A program made the translations under genes and the position numbers. The notes under the pieces are model-generated. The model was not told where the DNA came from and searched no databases. It worked only from the letters and a program-made list of their open reading frames with translations. This document shows positions 44,940 through 57,008 of a stretch of 57,076 nucleotides of DNA, piece by piece. Source of the DNA: Limosilactobacillus sp. Its GTDB lineage: Bacteria; Bacillota; Bacilli; Lactobacillales; Lactobacillaceae. Position 1 is the stretch's first letter. Each line of letters starts with the position of its first letter. The stretch lies in contig JAUMUE010000006.1 in assembly GCA_030530845.1 (NCBI GenBank), forward strand, positions 1 to 57,076, read 5' to 3'.

Positions 44940-46766
44940 ATGAAATTCACACCATTAAAATTAACCCTGACTGCTGCCACGACCATCGCCCTGATGTCTG
45001 TCGGCACGGCCGTATTAGCTGACAACGCCCAACCAAGTGACGTATCACAAAGCCAAGCGCGGCAAACTGACACTGTCACGCGGACAATCACCATCGTCAA
45101 CCCCATCACCAACGAAAAGACCGTGGTGACCCAGGTGGCAAACCGGAAACCCAAGCACAAGGGCGACCTCTCTAACTACTGGCTCGAAGTCTTCCCACCA
45201 ATGATTGAGGGGTATAAGGCTAACTACGTCTATATTGAACCGAAAGTAGTAGATGACAAGACAGAACCAAATGAGATTACCGTAACATATAAGAAGCTTG
45301 CTCAAGCCGGTGACTTTGTCCATAAATCAACTGCTGAAATTAATTTCATCGACGTAACGGGAAAAAAGTATGTTATGGGGCAAGGAGGTCAATTTGCAAG
45401 TGCACAAGTCGATAGGATTGATGGCATTGTTGAACTTCCTCCAGCTCCAGAGGGCTACGAGTATGTAAATAAGAATCTGCCAAAACGATTCCCAATTTAT
45501 TTCTATTCGATTGGTGGCCTTGTGCGTTTACTTTGCCAACCAATCCAAACTGACAGCACCCAGCCAGAAGAAACTCCAGTGATCGATACTCCTGTAATCG
45601 ATACGCCAACTGCCGGGGACGGCCAAACTACTTCTGGTGATAAGCAAGAAGATATTACGTCTCCCGAAGACAGCAAGGATCAAACCGCAGCTGACGAAAA
45701 TGAAACAAAGAAAGATGACGACAAGTCCGCTTCAGAAGATAAGAAGGATGAGGGCAAGGAAGAATCAACCAGTACTGATGAATCGGACACTAAGGATGAA
45801 TCAGTTGGTGATAATGATGCGGCTACTAAGGATGAAACTACAGGTACAGAAGAAAAGGAATCCAAGGATGATGAAGCCCAAACCGAAGAAGAACCCCAGG
45901 ATACAGAAGATAAGTCAACTGGTACTGACGAAACTGAAGTAAAGGATGAAGATATCCAAACTGATCCGACATCCGGGGAAGATAAGAAGGATGAATCAAC
46001 TGCAACTGAAGAAGTAGATACCAAGGACGAAGAAGCCCAGACCGACGAACCATCTAAGGATACCGAAGACGAGTCCACTTCAACTGAAGAACCAGAAACT
46101 AAGGACGAAGATACTCAAAGTGAACCTGAAGCAGGGGAAGACAAGAAGGACGAATCTACTGCTACCGAAGAAGTAGACACCAAGGATGAAACTACTGGTA
46201 CAGAAGACAATGAATCCAAAGACGATGAAGTTCAAACAGAAGAAGAACCCAAGGCTACCGATGACAAGTCAACTTGTACTGCCGAAACCGAGGTAATGGA
46301 TGTAGATACTCAAACCGAACCTGAAGCAGGGGAAGACAAGAAGGACGAATCTACCGCAATCGAAGAAGTAGACACCAAGGATGACACTACACAAACTGAC
46401 GAATTATCTAAGGATACCGAAGACGAGTACACTTCAACTGAAGATCTAGTTAACAAGGACGACCGCACGCAGATAGATGACGACAAGAAGGACGGTTCTA
46501 TTGCCGATACTCAAAAGCAAGGCACGAAGCTAAACGTTGCCGGGGATGCCTCCCAATCTGACTCCGACGACGACTCATTATCAGAGAAGCTTCGTGAACT
46601 CCAAGAGCCACTTCAACACCTCGATGATGATGCCAAAAGTGAGAAAAATGAAAAACTGCCACAAACAAGTAACAAAACCAATTTATTTATGACGCTTGTC
46701 GGTGCAGTAATGGCAACACTTTCAGCCTTTTATGGAAAGCGTGTATATAAAAAAGATCAAAATTAA
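44940..46766 (+). CDS. Surface protein with MucBP-like N terminus, acidic repeats and LPQTS sorting signal
   Basis: A 608-residue secreted protein. Residues 1-27 are a signal peptide (ALMSVGTAVLA|DN). About 45-110 resembles MucBP/Mub modules (TRTITIVNP...NEKTVVTQV and EITVTYKK). About 240-520 is an Asp/Glu/Lys/Thr/Ser low-complexity repeat region with very high negative charge. The C terminus has LPQTS (573-577), a hydrophobic helix and KRVYKKDQN. Ser in place of the Gly of LPxTG is unusual and may weaken sortase anchoring. There is no YSIRK motif. A long hairpin hides the ribosome binding site. Ligand unknown. Confidence 0.85.
   Translation: MKFTPLKLTLTAATTIALMSVGTAVLADNAQPSDVSQSQARQTDTVTRTITIVNPITNEKTVVTQVANRKPKHKGDLSNYWLEVFPPMIEGYKANYVYIEPKVVDDKTEPNEITVTYKKLAQAGDFVHKSTAEINFIDVTGKKYVMGQGGQFASAQVDRIDGIVELPPAPEGYEYVNKNLPKRFPIYFYSIGGLVRLLCQPIQTDSTQPEETPVIDTPVIDTPTAGDGQTTSGDKQEDITSPEDSKDQTAADENETKKDDDKSASEDKKDEGKEESTSTDESDTKDESVGDNDAATKDETTGTEEKESKDDEAQTEEEPQDTEDKSTGTDETEVKDEDIQTDPTSGEDKKDESTATEEVDTKDEEAQTDEPSKDTEDESTSTEEPETKDEDTQSEPEAGEDKKDESTATEEVDTKDETTGTEDNESKDDEVQTEEEPKATDDKSTCTAETEVMDVDTQTEPEAGEDKKDESTAIEEVDTKDDTTQTDELSKDTEDEYTSTEDLVNKDDRTQIDDDKKDGSIADTQKQGTKLNVAGDASQSDSDDDSLSEKLRELQEPLQHLDDDAKSEKNEKLPQTSNKTNLFMTLVGAVMATLSAFYGKRVYKKDQN
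45660..46500 (+). repeat. Acidic DTKDE / STATEE repeats in the LPQTS protein gene
   Basis: Degenerate units containing TKDE(x)TGTEE, EDKKDESTATEEVDTKDE and TEDESTST recur. One stretch of about 37 bases beginning AACCTGAAGCAGGGGAAG occurs at about 46123 and again at about 46317 (194 bases apart), evidence of recent duplication. A few units have drifted (STCTAE, EYTSTED). Confidence 0.8.
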
Positions 46767-46769
46767 TCC

Positions 46770-46798
46770 TTGCATTTCTAAGATTCTCATAGTATTCT
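46770..46798 (+). promoter_or_regulatory. Possible promoter of the leader peptide/permease transcript
   Basis: TTGCAT (46770-46775) and TATTCT (46793-46798) are spaced 17 bases. Both hexamers are imperfect. It is the best candidate between the surface gene stop and the leader peptide. Confidence 0.4.
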
Positions 46799-46829
46799 AA
46801 TCACATACCAAATAAGGAGGACTTACATT

Positions 46830-46892
46830 ATGCAATCTAATAACATTGTTGTACAAGTAAAGAGCACCTCCACCACAACCACAACACCTTAA
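46830..46892 (+). CDS. 20-residue Ser/Thr-rich attenuator leader peptide
   Basis: ATG at 46830 follows a perfect AAGGAGGA (46814-46821) by eight bases and encodes MQSNNIVVQVKSTSTTTTTP, then TAA at 46890-46892. Eight of the last nine residues are Ser or Thr, with six Thr codons (ACC and ACA). The codon run overlaps segment 1 of an attenuator (46876-46883). It is too short for routine gene calling. The peptide itself is not expected to have a function; its translation rate is the signal. Confidence 0.85.
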   Translation: MQSNNIVVQVKSTSTTTTTP

Positions 46893-47010
46893 ATGTGGTT
46901 GGGGATTATTTGACATTCCACTGAATACTGAAACAACAGCTATTCAAAAGCTCAGCCACATCTACTCAAGCTAGGATATAGTGGTTATGGAGTTTTTGGA
47001 TAGCTTTTTT
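46876..47010 (+). promoter_or_regulatory. Transcription attenuator with mutually exclusive 1:2, 2:3 and 3:4 hairpins
   Basis: 1:2 is CAACCACA (46876-46883, in the Thr codons) with TGTGGTTG (46894-46901). 3:4, the terminator, is 46938-46953 with 46990-47005 (16 paired positions, two wobbles), extended by AGCCAC (46954-46959) with GTGGTT (46981-46986), then six T. 2:3, the antiterminator, is ATGTGGTT (46893-46900) with AGCCACAT (46954-46961), plus GGG (46902-46904) with CTC (46951-46953) and TTTGA (46909-46913) with TCAAA (46944-46948). The 2:3 pairing uses most of the terminator left arm. Ribosome stalling at Thr codons would free segment 2 and allow readthrough into the permease gene. Confidence 0.82.
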
Positions 47011-47034
47011 GTTTGAGAAAGTGAGGTTTTACAT

Positions 47035-48423
47035 ATGGGAATGGAAGAGAAAGTTAAGTTGAAACGGACGATGACTCCGGGTCAAATGGAAATGATCGCG
47101 ATTGGTGGTACTATCGGTAGTGGTCTTTTCATGGGGGCTACTTCAACTATTAAGTGGACTGGGCCATCCGTTATTCTGGCCTACGCATTTGTTGGTTTTG
47201 TGCTTTATGGGGTTATGCGTGCCTTAGGGGAAATGGTTTACCTGAACCCTGGTACCGGATCCTTTGCAGATTATGGTGACAAATATATTCACCCATTCGC
47301 CGGTTACCTGACAAAATGGAGTAACGTATTCCAATTCATTATTGTTGGGATTTCAGATATTATTGCAATGAGTCAATATTTAAATTACTGGTGGCCTAAA
47401 TTACCGGACTGGGTGTCTGGTGTCGTTGTAATCGTAATGCTTACGCTGGCCAACTTGGTATCAGCTAAGGCATACGGTCGTTTGGAATTCTGGTTCGCAA
47501 TGATCAAGGTTGTTACTATCATCGCCATGATCATCATTGGTCTGCTTGTTATCGTCGTTGGTTTCGGTAACCACTGGCACCCAGTTGGTATTTCAAACAT
47601 CTGGAAGCACGGCGGATTATTCCCAGGTGGGTTCATGGGCTTCATGTTCTCAATGTCTGTGATCGCAGGTTCTTACCAAGGTATCGAATTGCTTGGTATT
47701 ACTGCTGGTGAAGCTGCTTCTCCACGTCACGCAATCGTTAAGTCAGTTAAGTCAGTTATCTGGCGTATCTTGATCTTCTACGTTGGTGCTATCTTCGTTA
47801 TCGTTTCTATCTACCCATGGAACCAACTCCAAGCTGTTGGATCACCATTCGTTGAAACGTTCACTAAGATCGGTATCACTGGTGCGGCCGGTATCATTAA
47901 CTTTGTTGTTCTTACTGCCGCATTATCTGGTGCAAACTCAGGTATCTACAGTGCCAGCCGGATGTTGTTCAAGCTCTCTGTCGACAAGCAAATCCCAAGT
48001 TTCTTCGGTAAGCTTTCAAAGCGCGTTGTTCCTAGCGTAGCCGTTGTAACTATCTCATTCTGGATCGCTGTTGGTTTCATTATGAACATCATCTTGTCAA
48101 TGGTAAACAAGAACGCAAGCAACATCTTCGTTATCGTTTACAGTTCATCTGTTCTGCCGGGGATGGTTCCTTGGTTCGTGATCTTGCTCGCTGAACTGAA
48201 CTACCGTAAGAACCACCCAGAAGATCTTGTGGATCACCCATTCAAGATGCCAATTTACCCAGCTTACAACTACTTCAGTATCGCTGCTTTAGCTGTCATC
48301 TTGGTATTCATGTTCTTCAACCCAGATACTCGTGTTTCAGTTTCTGTCGGTGTCGCATTCATCGTCATCGTTTGGTTAGCATTCCTGCGCCAAGTAAGAA
48401 AGAACCCAGAAGCTGCTAAGTAA
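47035..48423 (+). CDS. APC superfamily amino-acid permease (AAT family), predicted Thr/Ser transporter
   Basis: A 462-residue permease with about 12 membrane helices. The family signature is MIAIGGTIGSGLFMGA at helix 1; GEMVYLNPGTGSFADY and the substrate-region ELLGITAGEAASPRHAI follow. It belongs to the AAT family (relatives transport serine, threonine, proline, alanine/glycine). The Thr-rich leader peptide immediately upstream points to threonine and/or serine as substrate (inference). The ATG has GTGAGG eight bases upstream. It is monocistronic, ending in a terminator. Confidence 0.9.
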   Translation: MGMEEKVKLKRTMTPGQMEMIAIGGTIGSGLFMGATSTIKWTGPSVILAYAFVGFVLYGVMRALGEMVYLNPGTGSFADYGDKYIHPFAGYLTKWSNVFQFIIVGISDIIAMSQYLNYWWPKLPDWVSGVVVIVMLTLANLVSAKAYGRLEFWFAMIKVVTIIAMIIIGLLVIVVGFGNHWHPVGISNIWKHGGLFPGGFMGFMFSMSVIAGSYQGIELLGITAGEAASPRHAIVKSVKSVIWRILIFYVGAIFVIVSIYPWNQLQAVGSPFVETFTKIGITGAAGIINFVVLTAALSGANSGIYSASRMLFKLSVDKQIPSFFGKLSKRVVPSVAVVTISFWIAVGFIMNIILSMVNKNASNIFVIVYSSSVLPGMVPWFVILLAELNYRKNHPEDLVDHPFKMPIYPAYNYFSIAALAVILVFMFFNPDTRVSVSVGVAFIVIVWLAFLRQVRKNPEAAK

Positions 48424-49547: not shown

Positions 49548-52500
49548 ATGTCTATAGAAAAGGTAAATAAAAAAGCATATCAAGTTAAAAAACTAGAAGC
49601 TAATCAACTTCAACGGTTTGGCTTACGTAAGCTGAGTGTCGGAGTAGCTTCTGTTTTACTTAGTACTGCATTCTTCTGGGGAGGACAGGATGCATTGAGT
49701 GTTCACGCTGATACTAGCGCTAATACGAGCAACGAAGCAGAAACAAGTATATCGCAGAATTCCAATGCCCTAAACGGGAATTATGGTCCTTTGTCGAGCT
49801 CTAATGACAGTAGTTCAAACGACAAAAACGCAACTTCTGCAAACAATACTCCTGCGACTACTAACCAAAACAGCACAAATACCAACACTAGCTCAACTAG
49901 CACTAGTGACAAGCAATCAAAGATTAGTTTTGTTGATAGTGATGGATCACTTGTAGATTCTAAAACTGTTTACCCTGACCAAAGTGTGCGTTTAAATTTC
50001 CAAACTAATGATTATGTAGCTGGCGACGAATTTATTATTAAAATTCATCCCGTTCAAACCGATGGAATTGATCTTTCTGGTTATCTAGGCTATCCGGCAT
50101 TTGTTATTTCCCCTGGTAACGATAAGGTAAATGAAGTTGATGTTAGCTCAGTAAGTAGAAATGGAAATGAATTTGAATTCACAGATTCAATGAAGAGTTC
50201 CGGTTCATTTAGACAGATTATTGGATTAGCTACATTTGATTATTATCCTTCAGGGAAATTATTGAAGGATGGTACCTATGATATTGTTATCGATGTTTTG
50301 AAAAAAAGCTCCGATGGAAGTCAAGTTAAAGTTGCTAGCACCAGCTTTAAATACATTATTGAACACTATTCAAGTATTTATTATTACAATGACGGTTTTC
50401 CAGCTCAACACGGAACTGACCCATATCAAAGTGTATACACTTTAGATGGTTTGAAAACCAATGGGACTATTTTATCAAACGTTAATTATGATTGGAGATT
50501 CGTACCCTCTATTACTTGGCAGTTCAATTCTGGCACAACAATAAAAATTCCATTACCCAATCATTTTGTTGTTGATCTTGATAAGACTAATGAATTAAAT
50601 TCTAAATGGATTTCTCAGGCTAAAGTTAGTTTGAAGGTAGAAAATGGGGAAGCGATAATTACCTTTCCTCAGCTTTCACCAGAAGATCTTAAAAGCCTTG
50701 AAATACTTTCTGATGAAATTCTTCACATTGTGGGAAAGATTGATCAACAATTTGAAAAGACGACTACTGTTACAGGTAATGGTGATGTTACTTTACAAGG
50801 AACATCAAATGACGATTCAAAAAATCCTTTGGCAGTTAATGTTGTAGGTTTTAATCAATATCCTGATAAATCACCAATTGGTTCCCTTATAAAAGGAGGC
50901 ATTGGTCCTGATGTAGATAGAACCAATGCCCACGATATTGTTAAAAATCCTGATGCGCCCAAAAAATATACAAGTTTAGAAGATTCTAAGAAGAATGGTT
51001 CACATAACTTATCATATGCTGAATTACAAAATGTTTTTCCAGGTGAACTAAATGACATTGATGCTACAGTTGTTGTACCTGATGGGATGAATATTTCTGG
51101 AATTACTGTATTTAATGACTCAACTGATTTAGCAAGTACTGCTACTTTTAAGTTTGAATATGTTGATGGTACTCAATCTTCAGTACTCAGCAAAGATGAC
51201 TTTGTTTTGAACTATGATGGAGGGAAGCTACTTAAGTCGCCAGATGGAAAACTGATAAAAAAGGTTGACATTCACATTGGTAATGTCGATGCATTTAAAT
51301 ATTTATTTAATATAGGTTTGTATGGTGTTTTATCCACTGAATACCGTGGTGACAATGACAATAGTGTAATAAAAAGTTCTGACAGTACTCAACCTAAAAA
51401 AGGCGATAAATTAGGTAATTATGATTCTTTGCAAACAAAAATAATAGCTAATTTTTCAGATTTTCATGCAAATCCTGCCCATAATGAATCAGGAGTATGG
51501 ACGGCTTCGGAAGTTGCTTTAGTTAATAGCCCTAGTTATGATCTTCGCTTGAATATTACGTATTATGAAGGCAAGCAGACTAATATGCAACCTGGACAAA
51601 CAGGCGGAACGCTTAGATTTATGCTGGATGAATTAAGCAATGAATCTTCAACTTTTGCTTATTATGTCGTTCTCCCAACTAATGCATATCTGGATCCAAA
51701 TAACCCATTAAGTGGTGCTGCAATATCCAGTGCGAAAATCAGTTATCTTAAAATACACGATAGAAATGTCGTTAAAATTGCTTTTAATAATGTTAAGCGT
51801 AATCAAGTTTTAAATTCTGCTTTTGAGTTGCATTTGATTAATATGCCCGTTCTTGATAATAGTGCATTACAAAGCGATTATGCTGTACTGGTTACATCAG
51901 AAGATAACGATAATATGTATTATGGCTCGTTTGGCGGAGGATCAACTACTAAGATGCTCAAAGCTTCAAATCATTTGAACGGGGATAATGGTCTTATTTC
52001 TGAAAAAGTTTTTGCTGAAAATAATCCTAATACTTATGAGTTAGACAAAGGTACCTGGACAATTGTTGGTGATGTTGTTACCACAACTACTACAGAAGCA
52101 CAGGGCGATCAAAACACCTCATTTGTTCCCAATGGATCAACTAGTGACAAGGGATCAGGATCAATGAAGTTTAGTTCTACTGTATACAATTCTGATGATG
52201 ACAATATGAACAACGTCACCACCATTCTTCGTATTCCAAATAAACAAGATGGCGTATCAGAATTTGATTTTCAGGAATCTTCTCCAGTAACAGTTTATGA
52301 TGCAACTGACGACAAGGATGTTACCCAAAATTGCAAAGTCTACTATACAGAGAATGAAGCATACAAATCTAAGAAGATGAGCGATATTGGGCAAGATGAT
52401 TTGCAAAAAGACTTCACGGATAAAATTCCGAGTGACTTTTCTAAGGTTACCGCTGTTGCTGTGGTGATAGACAAGATTCCTTCTGAACACTTGTACCGTG

Positions 52501-55500
52501 TAATAGTCGACGGTAGTGATCCAACTTTTGCTGATGATGCTGGAAAGACAGCCTATGTAGCAAATAAGATTTGGGGCGATAGCTTACCTTCTAAAAACGT
52601 TGAAGCTGGTACTGTTGCCACAGATAAAGACAAGTCTCAATCGGCTTCAATTAAAGTGACTGGACAAGCATCAATTAACGTCCGTGCACATTTCACTGAT
52701 AGTCAAGGAGTAGATCATTATGTTTCTTTGCGGGGTATTACCTTGGAAGACAACAAAGATCAGCTCACTATTGATAAAATCCTTGATTCTGCATTTAATA
52801 TTAATCCTGATAGTTTGAAATCGTATGGACTTTCAATGAATCATATTAATTCGCTTAATGATAATAGTGATTTTAGAAAAATTATTCTTTCTAATTACCC
52901 TGAATTAGCGGATTATTCTATTGATTTTGAACATCCAAGTAATCCAGTTAATTTATCTGGTGGACAGAGTGGATCATTTAATGAGATAGTAAAACCATAT
53001 TTTGATGGGAACACTGTAACGTTTGAATTGTCAAAGTTACAAAAAACACAAGTTAATATTATTTTAAATAGAGAAGTAGAATTTATATCTGCCTTAGATA
53101 GAAAGACTAAAGTAAAACCAGATGATCAACAAAGTAACATGCTTACATCTTTAGTTGATGCTTACTATGATCCTTTAACTAAATCAACTTTCTTTAGTAA
53201 CTTAGATCAAACGACCTTTAATCTCCAAAATTACGCTTATGTAGCACATAATGACCTTCCAAATTATTTACTCTATGATAGAAATTTTGATTATAATAAT
53301 CCAAATTTGACCGAAAGATATTATATGGATGTAGATGGGATAATTAATGCTTTGAATAGTAACGGTCAAAAAATAGCGGATTCGTCTCATGGTTATAGAG
53401 TTGATGTTTTAAATACTGGTAATTTGGGACAAAATTATAATTCATCCATCACCACTGATGATTCAGTTGCGCCTGGCACTGTAAATGTTGTTTATCATAA
53501 TTACGTATATTATGAACCATTAGTCAACGTTTATTATGGTAAGTCAGTAAAGGAAATATCTAATCAAAACGGTCAAGAGATTCAAAAAGATCAAGAAAAG
53601 TTAGGTATTAACCAAGAAAAAAGAATAATTATTTATGACATTTATTCACCTAATGTAACTTACGATGCAAACACGTCTATTTTTACAGATATCAAAAGTT
53701 GGGAGAAAACACTAACATTTACAAATGCCGCTTCTGATATTGATGGTTATACTGTCCAAAGCGGTGACCAGTACCAATCTTCTCCATCAGCATCTGAAGA
53801 TATGAGCAAGTTCTCAAATTTCTTTATCGATCATCTTTTAATAAGTTCTCCCGAAGCGGATAACGTATTTAAACCAAGTAACAAAGTCGGAAAGCGGATT
53901 GATATATATAAAGATGGGGATACGTATACTCAAACAATTACAGACGATTCCTCTCTCCCTCCTTTAGATGTTAATTTCGTCTACCATTTCGTCGTTCACT
54001 ACAACCCCAACTACACGATCAACGTCAGCCGTCAGACGAACTACATCTCTGACAAGACAGGGGACAAGTTGCAAGACAGCACGACTGAAAGTAACTTGGG
54101 GACTGGTACGTTGACGACGACTTATGACCAAAATACGCATGCGTTGACTGGTCACGGGGATGTTCCATCTAACTTGGGATACAGTGATTACCAAACTCCA
54201 TCAGTCAAGGGCTTCAATTTGGACGCAAGTGATCAAACACTGACAGGTCCAACTGGTGCGCAAATTCAACAAATCTTGTCCGATCATTTGTCAGCTCTGT
54301 TAGACAGCAGTCACACACACGGTATGCGGGTCGATGTGACGAAGAGCGGGGATGGATACACTGCAACGTACGCAGAAGACGCGACATTACCACAATTCAC
54401 AATCAATGTGGTTTACCACCAAGACGCACACTACAGCACGGCTGCGGATGTGACTTTTACCCATGACGTGAGGTACGTTTCAGATGCGACTGGGGAAGAA
54501 ATTGCGGAACCAGATACTATGACCGTAACTTCAGACATTGCGACGACATACGACCAAGGCACTCATGCGTTGACTGGCATCGGTACTGTCGGGGATGACA
54601 TGGCTTATGCGGGCCAAACTGCCAAGGAAATTTCAGGCTACAAGGTTAATGACGCTTCGAATTCATTGCCAGGTGTAACTAAGGATCAAATCCAAGGCAT
54701 TCTGAGTCAAAACAAGGATCAATTGTTCAACGCCTCAAACGCTCATGGATTTGACATCATAATCACCAACGACAACGGAACGGTTAACAGCACGATTAAG
54801 CAAAACGACAAACTGGATTCTGGCAAGGTCAACATCGTCCTTCACCAAGTCGCACACTACAACCCAATCGTCACTGTGAACGTAAATCGGACCACTGATT
54901 ACGTCTCTAACCAAAGTGGTGCCAAGGTGCAAACTTCCACCAGCTCCGACAGTCCGAAGAGCGCAACCGTCACGACTGACTATGACGGCAGCACCCAAAC
55001 GATCAAGTCATTCGGCAAGATCTCAACAGACGTCTCAGAAGGTGAAATCGCAACTCCAGAGATCCCTGGGTACACGGTTGACACGAGTGACTCCAAGCTT
55101 CCAGGTATCACGACCGATGAAATTTCTACAGTGATCAAAGACAACCAGGACAAGATCTTCAACAGTCACGAACATGGTGTCACGGTCGAAATTGAAAAGA
55201 CTGCTGACGGCTATAAGGCAACCAAGATCACTGAAGATCCAACTCTGCCAGCCAATACGGTCAACATCACGTACCACGAAACTGCGCACTACAACCAAGA
55301 CTCATCAGTCGTAATCTCTAAGAACACCAAGTACGTATCAAATGCAACTGGCAAGGACATTCAACCGGCCGACTCCACGATAGTAACGACTTCTGACGTG
55401 GACCCAATTTACGATCCAACGACGCATGAAGTGACCGGTGTGACCGACCTGGCAAGTTCTGACACGATTGATGCGACAGAACCTAAGAAGATCGACGGAT

Positions 55501-57008
55501 ACACTGCTAGCGACACGACTCTGCCTGGGTTAACTACTGCTCAAATCCAAGAGATCATTGACCAATACAAGAGCCAACTCTTCAACAAGGACAATGATCA
55601 CGGATACACGATTGACGTAACTGTCGATGGTGATAAGGTCAACTCAAACATCGTGGCTAACGATAAGCTTGATACCGGCAAGTTCAACCTGGTATTGCAT
55701 CAAGTCGTTCACTACGACCCAATTTACACGGTCGAAGAAAGCCGTGAAACCAGCTACGTCGACAATAAGTCCGGTGAAAAGGTCACTGCTGACAAGGTGA
55801 TCTACAACTCTAGATCCGCTAAGGTTGACACAACCTACGACAGCAACAGTCACCAAATCACCAGCTTCACCGACGTACCAGCTGACTTTGGCTACGGTGA
55901 AACCAATGTGTCAGGAATCAACGGATATAAGGTTTCAGAAGGGGACACCAAGCTGGACGGTCCTAGCCAAGCTGAAATTCAAAAGATCTTGACTGAACAC
56001 GAAAGCGACCTCTTCTCAGCATCCCACAAGTCCGGTATGCGGGTCGACCTCACCAAGGACGGCGATCACTACGATGTCCAAGTGAGTGAGGATCCAGCGG
56101 TTGCAGCACGCACAATTTCCTTGGTTTACCACGAAACTGCACACTTCAATCCATTCGACCACATCGAATTCACGCGTGACACTGATTACGTCAGCCCAGA
56201 CGGCACCGCATTGAAGGACTCCACGTTAGAAAAGATCAGCGATGGCGATATCGATACTGTATACGACCAAACTTCGCACACGATTACCTCTGTTGGCGAC
56301 CTTCCTGCAGGCTCTGACTACGGCGAATTCATCGCACCAGAAGTTGATGGATACACTGTGAGCGATTCTGACAAGACGATCCAAGGCCCATCATCCGCAG
56401 AATTGCAAGAAATCATCACAAACCACAAGAGCGAACTCTTCAACGGCGATCACCAACACGGTATGCGCGTCGATCTCACCAAGACTGATGATGGATACGA
56501 CGTGAAGATCACCGAAGACGACACTCTTGCGGCTGGTACGATCTCCGTGGTATTCCACCAAACTGTCCACTATGCTAAGACTGTCGTACCTACTCCAGGC
56601 GACGATGGAAATGGTGGCCAAGGCGGAAATCAAGGCGGATCCTCAACCGACCACAGTGGCGACACTGATGGAAAGGGTGGAAATACTGGTAGCGGCACAG
56701 GTACTGATGCAAATACCAATGAAAATACTGGTGATAGCACTGGTAATGATACCGGCGCTAACAAAGGCGATATCACAGGTGCAGACACTGGTGCAAACAC
56801 CAATACCGGTTCTGAAACTACCGTAGAAACCACTAGCCAAAAAGATAATTATGTCAACATGGGCCAACAAGCATCCAACAAGCAAGCTAAGAAGTTGCCT
56901 CAAACTGGTAACGAATCAACTGAATCCATCCTCGGATTAGCATTGATATCTATGGCTGGTCTTATGGGTCTTGCTGGAACTCGTAAAGGAAAAAAGGACG
57001 AATTATAG
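49548..57008 (+). CDS. Giant LPxTG adhesin with YSIRK-type signal and Mub-like repeats
   Basis: A 2486-residue wall-anchored protein. Residues 1-54 are a long YSIRK-type signal (RFGLRKLSVGVASVLLS, cleavage VHA|DT). Residues 55-125 are Asn/Ser/Thr-rich. About 125-1170 is a large region of beta-rich modules I do not recognise. From about 1170 a repeat series begins: two diverged copies (about 1170-1483), then six regular copies (1484-2340) of 141-144 residues, each with HYNPxxxVxxxRxTxYVS, TTYDxxTHxLT, PGxTxxQIQxIL, HGMRVDxTK and the closing VNIVYHxxAHY. A Gly/Asn/Thr linker leads to LPQTG (2450-2454) and an anchor helix. The 5' part is much more AT-rich than the 3' part (see findings). Confidence 0.93.
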   Translation: MSIEKVNKKAYQVKKLEANQLQRFGLRKLSVGVASVLLSTAFFWGGQDALSVHADTSANTSNEAETSISQNSNALNGNYGPLSSSNDSSSNDKNATSANNTPATTNQNSTNTNTSSTSTSDKQSKISFVDSDGSLVDSKTVYPDQSVRLNFQTNDYVAGDEFIIKIHPVQTDGIDLSGYLGYPAFVISPGNDKVNEVDVSSVSRNGNEFEFTDSMKSSGSFRQIIGLATFDYYPSGKLLKDGTYDIVIDVLKKSSDGSQVKVASTSFKYIIEHYSSIYYYNDGFPAQHGTDPYQSVYTLDGLKTNGTILSNVNYDWRFVPSITWQFNSGTTIKIPLPNHFVVDLDKTNELNSKWISQAKVSLKVENGEAIITFPQLSPEDLKSLEILSDEILHIVGKIDQQFEKTTTVTGNGDVTLQGTSNDDSKNPLAVNVVGFNQYPDKSPIGSLIKGGIGPDVDRTNAHDIVKNPDAPKKYTSLEDSKKNGSHNLSYAELQNVFPGELNDIDATVVVPDGMNISGITVFNDSTDLASTATFKFEYVDGTQSSVLSKDDFVLNYDGGKLLKSPDGKLIKKVDIHIGNVDAFKYLFNIGLYGVLSTEYRGDNDNSVIKSSDSTQPKKGDKLGNYDSLQTKIIANFSDFHANPAHNESGVWTASEVALVNSPSYDLRLNITYYEGKQTNMQPGQTGGTLRFMLDELSNESSTFAYYVVLPTNAYLDPNNPLSGAAISSAKISYLKIHDRNVVKIAFNNVKRNQVLNSAFELHLINMPVLDNSALQSDYAVLVTSEDNDNMYYGSFGGGSTTKMLKASNHLNGDNGLISEKVFAENNPNTYELDKGTWTIVGDVVTTTTTEAQGDQNTSFVPNGSTSDKGSGSMKFSSTVYNSDDDNMNNVTTILRIPNKQDGVSEFDFQESSPVTVYDATDDKDVTQNCKVYYTENEAYKSKKMSDIGQDDLQKDFTDKIPSDFSKVTAVAVVIDKIPSEHLYRVIVDGSDPTFADDAGKTAYVANKIWGDSLPSKNVEAGTVATDKDKSQSASIKVTGQASINVRAHFTDSQGVDHYVSLRGITLEDNKDQLTIDKILDSAFNINPDSLKSYGLSMNHINSLNDNSDFRKIILSNYPELADYSIDFEHPSNPVNLSGGQSGSFNEIVKPYFDGNTVTFELSKLQKTQVNIILNREVEFISALDRKTKVKPDDQQSNMLTSLVDAYYDPLTKSTFFSNLDQTTFNLQNYAYVAHNDLPNYLLYDRNFDYNNPNLTERYYMDVDGIINALNSNGQKIADSSHGYRVDVLNTGNLGQNYNSSITTDDSVAPGTVNVVYHNYVYYEPLVNVYYGKSVKEISNQNGQEIQKDQEKLGINQEKRIIIYDIYSPNVTYDANTSIFTDIKSWEKTLTFTNAASDIDGYTVQSGDQYQSSPSASEDMSKFSNFFIDHLLISSPEADNVFKPSNKVGKRIDIYKDGDTYTQTITDDSSLPPLDVNFVYHFVVHYNPNYTINVSRQTNYISDKTGDKLQDSTTESNLGTGTLTTTYDQNTHALTGHGDVPSNLGYSDYQTPSVKGFNLDASDQTLTGPTGAQIQQILSDHLSALLDSSHTHGMRVDVTKSGDGYTATYAEDATLPQFTINVVYHQDAHYSTAADVTFTHDVRYVSDATGEEIAEPDTMTVTSDIATTYDQGTHALTGIGTVGDDMAYAGQTAKEISGYKVNDASNSLPGVTKDQIQGILSQNKDQLFNASNAHGFDIIITNDNGTVNSTIKQNDKLDSGKVNIVLHQVAHYNPIVTVNVNRTTDYVSNQSGAKVQTSTSSDSPKSATVTTDYDGSTQTIKSFGKISTDVSEGEIATPEIPGYTVDTSDSKLPGITTDEISTVIKDNQDKIFNSHEHGVTVEIEKTADGYKATKITEDPTLPANTVNITYHETAHYNQDSSVVISKNTKYVSNATGKDIQPADSTIVTTSDVDPIYDPTTHEVTGVTDLASSDTIDATEPKKIDGYTASDTTLPGLTTAQIQEIIDQYKSQLFNKDNDHGYTIDVTVDGDKVNSNIVANDKLDTGKFNLVLHQVVHYDPIYTVEESRETSYVDNKSGEKVTADKVIYNSRSAKVDTTYDSNSHQITSFTDVPADFGYGETNVSGINGYKVSEGDTKLDGPSQAEIQKILTEHESDLFSASHKSGMRVDLTKDGDHYDVQVSEDPAVAARTISLVYHETAHFNPFDHIEFTRDTDYVSPDGTALKDSTLEKISDGDIDTVYDQTSHTITSVGDLPAGSDYGEFIAPEVDGYTVSDSDKTIQGPSSAELQEIITNHKSELFNGDHQHGMRVDLTKTDDGYDVKITEDDTLAAGTISVVFHQTVHYAKTVVPTPGDDGNGGQGGNQGGSSTDHSGDTDGKGGNTGSGTGTDANTNENTGDSTGNDTGANKGDITGADTGANTNTGSETTVETTSQKDNYVNMGQQASNKQAKKLPQTGNESTESILGLALISMAGLMGLAGTRKGKKDEL
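53997..56567 (+). repeat. Six tandem ~430-bp repeats of a MucBP/Mub-like module
   Basis: Copies start at the His codons at 53997, 54429, 54855, 55287, 55710 and 56142 and end at 56567; spacing is 144, 142, 144, 144-141 and 142-144 codons. They alternate between two subtypes: those ending GMRVDxTKxxDGY...EDxTL and those ending TIxVxxxxxxVNSxIxxNDKLDxGK. An older, diverged AT-rich copy precedes them from 53508. Confidence 0.88.

Follow-up and report, generated by a model that had tools for sequence, protein, structure and literature searches.

Attenuators of the enteric thr and his operons consist of a short open reading frame (ORF) with codons for the sensed amino acid, a set of alternative RNA pairings and a terminator before the first gene. 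T-boxes and lysine riboswitches also act by premature termination ahead of a gene. The mechanism of the his attenuator of enteric type has been described (PMC9413887) and, as far as the accessible text of the sources goes, the same principle occurs in Firmicutes: histidine leader-peptide attenuation is predicted for hisS paralogues and his operons of bacilli and other members of the phylum (PMC2965389, PMC9413887), the ilv-leu operon of S. aureus has a leucine-rich attenuator peptide with mutational support, and Leu-type leader peptides are predicted in Lactococcus and Streptococcus (PMC5794164). Upstream ORF motifs that follow the same logic are found elsewhere, for example upstream of cysS in Rhodobacterales (PMC8632094).

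We analysed a window of 57,076 nucleotides (the whole stretch of Limosilactobacillus DNA presented above) in which an element of this kind, very probably a ribosome-mediated transcription attenuator, stands ahead of a permease gene. It resembles the enteric thr and his leaders in having a short ORF with sensed codons, alternative pairings and a terminator upstream of the first gene, and differs from them in that the gene is an uptake permease and the host belongs to the Lactobacillaceae. Rfam covariance models gave neither a T-box match nor a match to the curated leader families, such as the proteobacterial threonine leader, at gathering level in the window or up to an E-value of 5 on positions 46700-47100. 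Because there is no Rfam match, sequence kinship to the enteric leaders is not shown. With T-boxes and the lysine riboswitch the element shares premature termination ahead of a gene; those sense tRNA or lysine without a coding sequence, whereas here a coding sequence is present and Rfam finds no match.

Closer to home, the Firmicutes His leaders are alike in that leader-peptide attenuation replaces a T-box, and unlike in amino acid, lineage and targets (hisS paralogues and his operons). The S. aureus ilv-leu leader is likewise a Firmicutes leader peptide, but it serves a biosynthetic operon and uses Leu/Ile codons, and in the accessible part of the sources a codon-swapped copy of the kind reported below is not described. 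Among the open-access papers listed by our literature searches we recognised none describing the threonine leader element. The initial annotation had considered a leader peptide in this position unusual for Firmicutes; the leader-peptide attenuator reading itself is supported, while the claim of rarity has to be softened in view of the His and Leu precedents (PMC2965389, PMC9413887, PMC5794164). As far as these sources go, ribosome-mediated attenuation is already known, Firmicutes His and Leu included, and what is notable here is a codon-swapped pair that would control uptake.

On the forward strand the region reads, in order, a promoter-like pair of hexamers, AAGGAGG, the ORF, a segment complementary to its threonine codons, a long terminator and six T residues (Table 1). 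Direct reading bears out the 20-codon ORF with a good Shine-Dalgarno (SD) sequence and six Thr codons that had been proposed, and corrects the statement that it ends in Ser/Thr codons: the final codon is Pro. Upstream lies a large, repetitive ORF at 44940-46766 (stop at 46766) in which acidic residues and Thr abound; it ends, by eye, in an LPXTG-like motif and has no match in NCBIfam. A second large ORF at 49548-57008, also with an LPXTG-like end by eye, lies downstream of the permease region.

Table 1. Features of the leader and of the permease gene, in positions of the window.
Feature	Position	Strand	Basis
Putative promoter: TTGCAT 46770-46775, 17-bp spacer, TATTCT 46793-46798	46770..46798	+	sequence and conservation
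TTCTCATAGTATTCTAAT, TTCTAAT repeat with 10-bp spacing across the -10	46784..46801	+	own-genome pattern search
Leader Shine-Dalgarno AAGGAGG	46814-46820	+	sequence
Leader ORF MQSNNIVVQVKSTSTTTTTP: ATG 46830, 20 codons, TAA 46890-46892	46830..46892	+	sequence
Segment 1, within the Thr codons, partner of segment 2	46873..46883	+	folding; 3/9 pairs changed on both sides
Segment 2 ATGTGGTTGGGG, partner of segment 1 or segment 3	46893..46904	+	folding, alignment
Terminator 5' arm AGCTATTCAAAAGCTC	46938..46953	+	folding; 8/14 pairs changed on both sides
Segment 3 CTCAGCCACAT, antiterminator partner of segment 2, overlaps the terminator 5' side	46951..46961	+	folding, alignment
Terminator 3' arm 46990-47005 and T run 47005-47010	46990..47010	+	sequence, folding
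APC-superfamily permease, 462 aa, nearest model ThrP (threonine/serine)	47035..48423	+	NCBIfam NF047867

Folding agrees with the three alternative pairings that had been read from the letters. The 1:2 hairpin has a predicted energy of -13.1 kcal/mol, equalled by 5 of 200 shuffles, and the fragment with segments 2 and 3 (46893-46966) folds at -20.3 kcal/mol with no shuffle of 200 as good; the margin over chance shrinks for a longer stretch around 2:3 (46890-46990; z -1.67, 13/200 shuffles). The terminator, previously given as a 16-bp stem plus T6, indeed forms 16 pairs including G-U, with a long and branched loop (-29.4 kcal/mol, z -5.19, 0/200 shuffles). For the entire leader (46805-47012) z is -3.87, again with 0/200 shuffles. 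A consensus scan listed no terminator-like site at the leader because its loop limit is 8. The same scan reported no forward-strand promoter at its thresholds, so the promoter call rests on conservation: TTGC-19-TATTCT occurs upstream of 31 of 41 leaders of the genus, and of 37 under a relaxed pattern.

Those 41 leaders come from a DNA search of 50 Limosilactobacillus genomes including our own, 49 of which matched. We inspected the upstream regions of 50 loci (L002-L051) for an ORF with an SD-like site, at least two Thr codons and a Ser/Thr pair, and found a leader ORF with a Ser/Thr run upstream of the permease in 41 of the 50 genomes. In all 41, GGAG or AGGA lies no more than 20 nt from the ATG (an SD-like site being also a search condition). 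These leaders carry 3-9 Thr and 1-6 Ser codons, with Thr outnumbering Ser in 39. Relative to the start of segment 2, the leader stop codon falls between -6 and +15 nt, a placement at which a ribosome completing the leader would mask that segment. In the alignment the ATG is invariant and much of the run nearly so, while the intervening stretch varies in sequence and length; even so, the distance from ATG to run is a multiple of three in 41/41 rows, a count from which no motif-bearing locus was left out for being out of frame. Codon conservation alone is no proof of sensing, because the DNA of the run is also under base-pairing constraint.

The nine loci of the genus without a leader were inspected individually. 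One genome (G006, L039) keeps promoter, SD and stems by eye and has lost the ATG and the Thr run. Two (G026, G047; 72 % identity) have a terminator and no leader, three (G025, G040, G017) gave only a permease at about 65 % identity, one match lies at a contig edge (G041), and G024 has no match to the query DNA. The remaining genome, G035, at first sight a double loss (L119, L160), was rejected: coding sequences are joined end to end at both places read, and because the record is without intergenic DNA there it is no evidence of loss. A record of this type would give false losses in any promoter or RNA-element survey that counts it.

Alignment of the related leaders, proposed earlier as a check, shows that the short ORF, the Thr codons and the three pairings are kept and that some pairs have changed on both sides. 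For the 2:3 helix 94.8 % of 366 alignment cells are paired, a level reached by none of 500 shuffles; 3 of its 9 pairs have changed on both sides, a measure that is weak for this helix on its own because 77/500 shuffles reach it. The 1:2 helix is paired in 94.2 % of 365 cells with 3/9 pairs changed on both sides (5/500 shuffles), and the 3:4 helix in 79.8 % of 516 cells with 8/14 (16/500). When the partners are slid by 1-3 columns, pairing falls to 25-57 % for all three helices. If the count is restricted to the 29 closest rows, no 2:3 pair has changed on both sides and two 3:4 pairs have, a number that 359/500 shuffles reach; the covariation signal for these two helices comes from the more distant leaders. 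Taken sequence by sequence, the terminators reach a median z of -5.35. In 39 of 41 leaders no more than 10 of 200 shuffles equal the antiterminator duplex; L035 (94/200) and L043 (32/200) fail. The shuffles overstate independence because the rows are related. The mutually exclusive 1:2, 2:3 and 3:4 pairings are thus kept in relatives, more weakly so in the 29 closest rows.

The permease scores highest, of 20 families, against the threonine/serine transporter model ThrP (NF047867; 551.6 bits, E 1.6e-165), under the curated cut-off of 850 bits, and ThrP is accordingly its nearest relative only. The link between Thr codons and gene thus rests on nearest kinship. The proposal that the substrate is threonine and/or serine fits this kinship. 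Two Pfam searches combined give 15 APC permeases in the genome; a Ser/Thr leader was seen upstream of two of them, and no leader precedes the paralogue of the permease at G000:C6 (L036).

The second of these two leaders was found with R1, a covariance model built from the 41 leaders, which has a second match in its own genome on the reverse strand (G000:C9:5890-6080, L112; E 1.3e-6). One further site at E below 1e-6 is also found in three other genomes of the genus, making four of the seven in the genus draw including our own. This sister leader, MTTVFNTKTQQSSSSVSNNFRD, which was out of sight of the initial annotation, has a serine run, SSSSVS, followed by similar alternative stems, upstream of a second permease. 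For this second permease the best-scoring model is that of L-type transporters (TIGR00911; 183.9 bits, cut-off 701.8); the protein also matches PDB 6f2g (E 2.6e-85), which we take to be BasC, an Ala/Ser/Cys exchanger. Its orthologue is present in 48 of 50 genomes of the genus, and 28 of the 30 loci inspected have a leader with a run of at least three Ser. At L157 (G037) the Ser leader has a one-base frameshift and a changed upstream region; L160, in the G035 record, was discarded as a loss, the genome record being an artefact. On 27 distinct rows the Ser 1:2 helix is paired in 93.4 % of cells with 3/9 pairs changed on both sides, and the 2:3 helix in 92.9 % against at most 50 % when slid, with a covariation score no higher than in shuffles (291/500). 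The Ser terminator was folded for one row.

A second covariance model built from the Ser leaders (R2) matches 6 of 151 genomes of the family at E 0.001. It finds the Thr leader of one genome (G038, E 5.2e-6) and, in another genus, MKYLHCTNLNASSSSSSTSSGT upstream of a permease that looks alike by eye; R1 and R2 thus each match members of the other's set. In four loci (L173-L176) the Ser leader carries GTGGTTG, as does segment 2 of the Thr leader. Judging from these similarities, the simplest reading would be that the Thr and Ser elements share common descent with an exchange of codons.

Every attenuator feature that can be looked for in sequence is present in the Thr element: an ORF with SD, a codon run, the pairings, a terminator with T run and a suitably placed stop. 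From these we infer how it may work. The ribosome would translate the leader while RNA polymerase moves ahead. With Thr-tRNA (and Ser-tRNA) ample, it would reach the stop beside segment 2 and cover that segment, so that the 3:4 terminator forms and the permease stays untranscribed. When threonine (or serine) is scarce, the ribosome would stall over segment 1, within the STSTTTTT run. This would leave segment 2 free to pair with segment 3, blocking the terminator, and the permease would be made and import the missing amino acid. In an untranslated leader, 1:2 would form and 3:4 would terminate transcription.

Alternative terminator and antiterminator folds are also typical of RNA switches of other kinds, whether they respond to a ligand, to uncharged tRNA in the manner of a T-box, or to an RNA-binding protein; in such a switch the ORF would be incidental. 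Other sensors are indeed in use in this genome, since a lysine riboswitch recognised by Rfam (L120:1167-1338) lies upstream of another APC permease and a stretch before a further permease (L122) resembles the T-box motif, which Rfam did not confirm. For the present element we consider such a switch very unlikely: the Rfam searches returned nothing, ATG and run stay in frame in every leader although the part between them varies, and the sister element swaps the Thr codons for Ser. Still a little less probable is that the ORF encodes a functional Thr-rich microprotein and that the terminator only separates transcription units. The ORF does look translated, with its good SD, and its C-terminal half is conserved, but its N-terminal half varies freely in both sequence and length, conservation falls where segment 1 lies, and the pairing of the terminator arm with segment 2 beats nearly all shuffles in 39/41 leaders.

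A different doubt concerns the signal and leaves attenuation standing. Ser codons are mixed into every leader, the nearest permease model is Thr/Ser and the sister leader has a Ser run, all of which would fit serine, or a general slowdown of translation, as the primary signal. We think this unlikely, while giving it distinctly more weight than the two readings above, as Thr exceeds Ser in nearly all leaders of the genus and a single Ser against five or more Thr is common in leaders of other genera. Attenuation in response to threonine (or serine) remains our preferred reading.

Beyond the genus, R1 matched 84 of 151 genomes of the family at E 0.5 or better and 19 at 1e-4 or better, of which 18, from seven genera, have the match upstream of the permease with a leader there. 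The other (G159, E 4.2e-5; L098, L116) was dropped: it overlaps the end of an ORF named by eye as a HAD-like hydrolase, with no permease among the listed ORFs. In an order-wide set of 295 genomes, 19 had matches at E 0.01 or better, and 11 of these genomes lie outside the family (1.9e-5 to 0.0072). The five of these 11 weak matches that were read (L259, L260, L261, L263, L265) showed no leader ORF or convincing leader, and we take these as chance. A phage collection gave no match to 46780-47020.

In a set of named relatives, a permease search kept 80 loci of 185 relatives, and these were scanned without an SD requirement, a stricter scan having missed some leaders. Four of 56 flagged loci (L246, L247, L251, L257) had only a short Ser/Thr tail and were dropped as chance ORFs, leaving a leader in 52 of 80 loci. 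At 75 % identity or more, 32 of 33 loci have one; below that, 20 of 47 do. The leaders belong to Limosilactobacillus, Ligilactobacillus, Weissella, Furfurilactobacillus and Pediococcus. Among the 28 loci without a leader, 21 are at 64-67 % identity.

The two attenuators have more in common than their stems. TTCTAATNNTATTCTAAT lies over the -10 of both promoters and is possibly the operator of some regulator; likewise the repeat at the Thr promoter (Table 1) is possibly an operator or an extended promoter. The pattern TTCTAATRRTATTCTAAT occurs in our genome at three sites with up to two mismatches (one site for the reversed control). Two are the attenuator promoters, with 0 and 1 mismatch; the third, with two mismatches and in opposite orientation, is 72 bp upstream of another APC permease (loci L273 and L275 examined). 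When 56 genomes were searched with at most one mismatch allowed, the pattern turned up in 30 of the 33 that belong to the genus and in 3 of the remaining 23; the control gave four matches in total.

In the most stable fold of the whole leader, the SD (46816-46820) pairs with CCUCC of the codon run (46867-46871), which may occlude the ribosome site of the leader itself. Compared with their synonymous alternatives, the codons at the start of the run rank in the best 5 % for such pairing in 25 of 41 Thr leaders and 9 of 28 Ser leaders. The pairing is only a lead, given the relatedness of the rows and the other roles that these codons have.

A wider hypothesis, to which we give somewhat less than half of our belief, is that a single ancestral RNA scaffold underwent duplication in Lactobacillaceae and acquired a new target through exchange of the sensed codons, Thr for a ThrP-like and Ser for an L-type-like permease. 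This would yield a small Ser/Thr-uptake regulon with a shared promoter repeat, in which the sensed codons (for example ACC TCC or TCC TCC) may double as an anti-SD that closes the leader's ribosome site.

From sequence alone, the elements suggest what two lactobacillus transporters are likely to respond to and to carry. Within the accessible text of the sources, threonine and serine would join histidine and leucine/isoleucine as amino acids with reported or predicted leader-peptide sensing in Firmicutes. The genome in which the start codon and Thr run are lost (G006) provides a natural variant of the leader, and a genome with a locus titled Limosilactobacillus reuteri, the name of a tractable commensal, carries both elements by model match. 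Both codon choices on what appears to be a single scaffold, within one genome, would form a natural experiment on whether an attenuator owes its specificity to codon identity alone.
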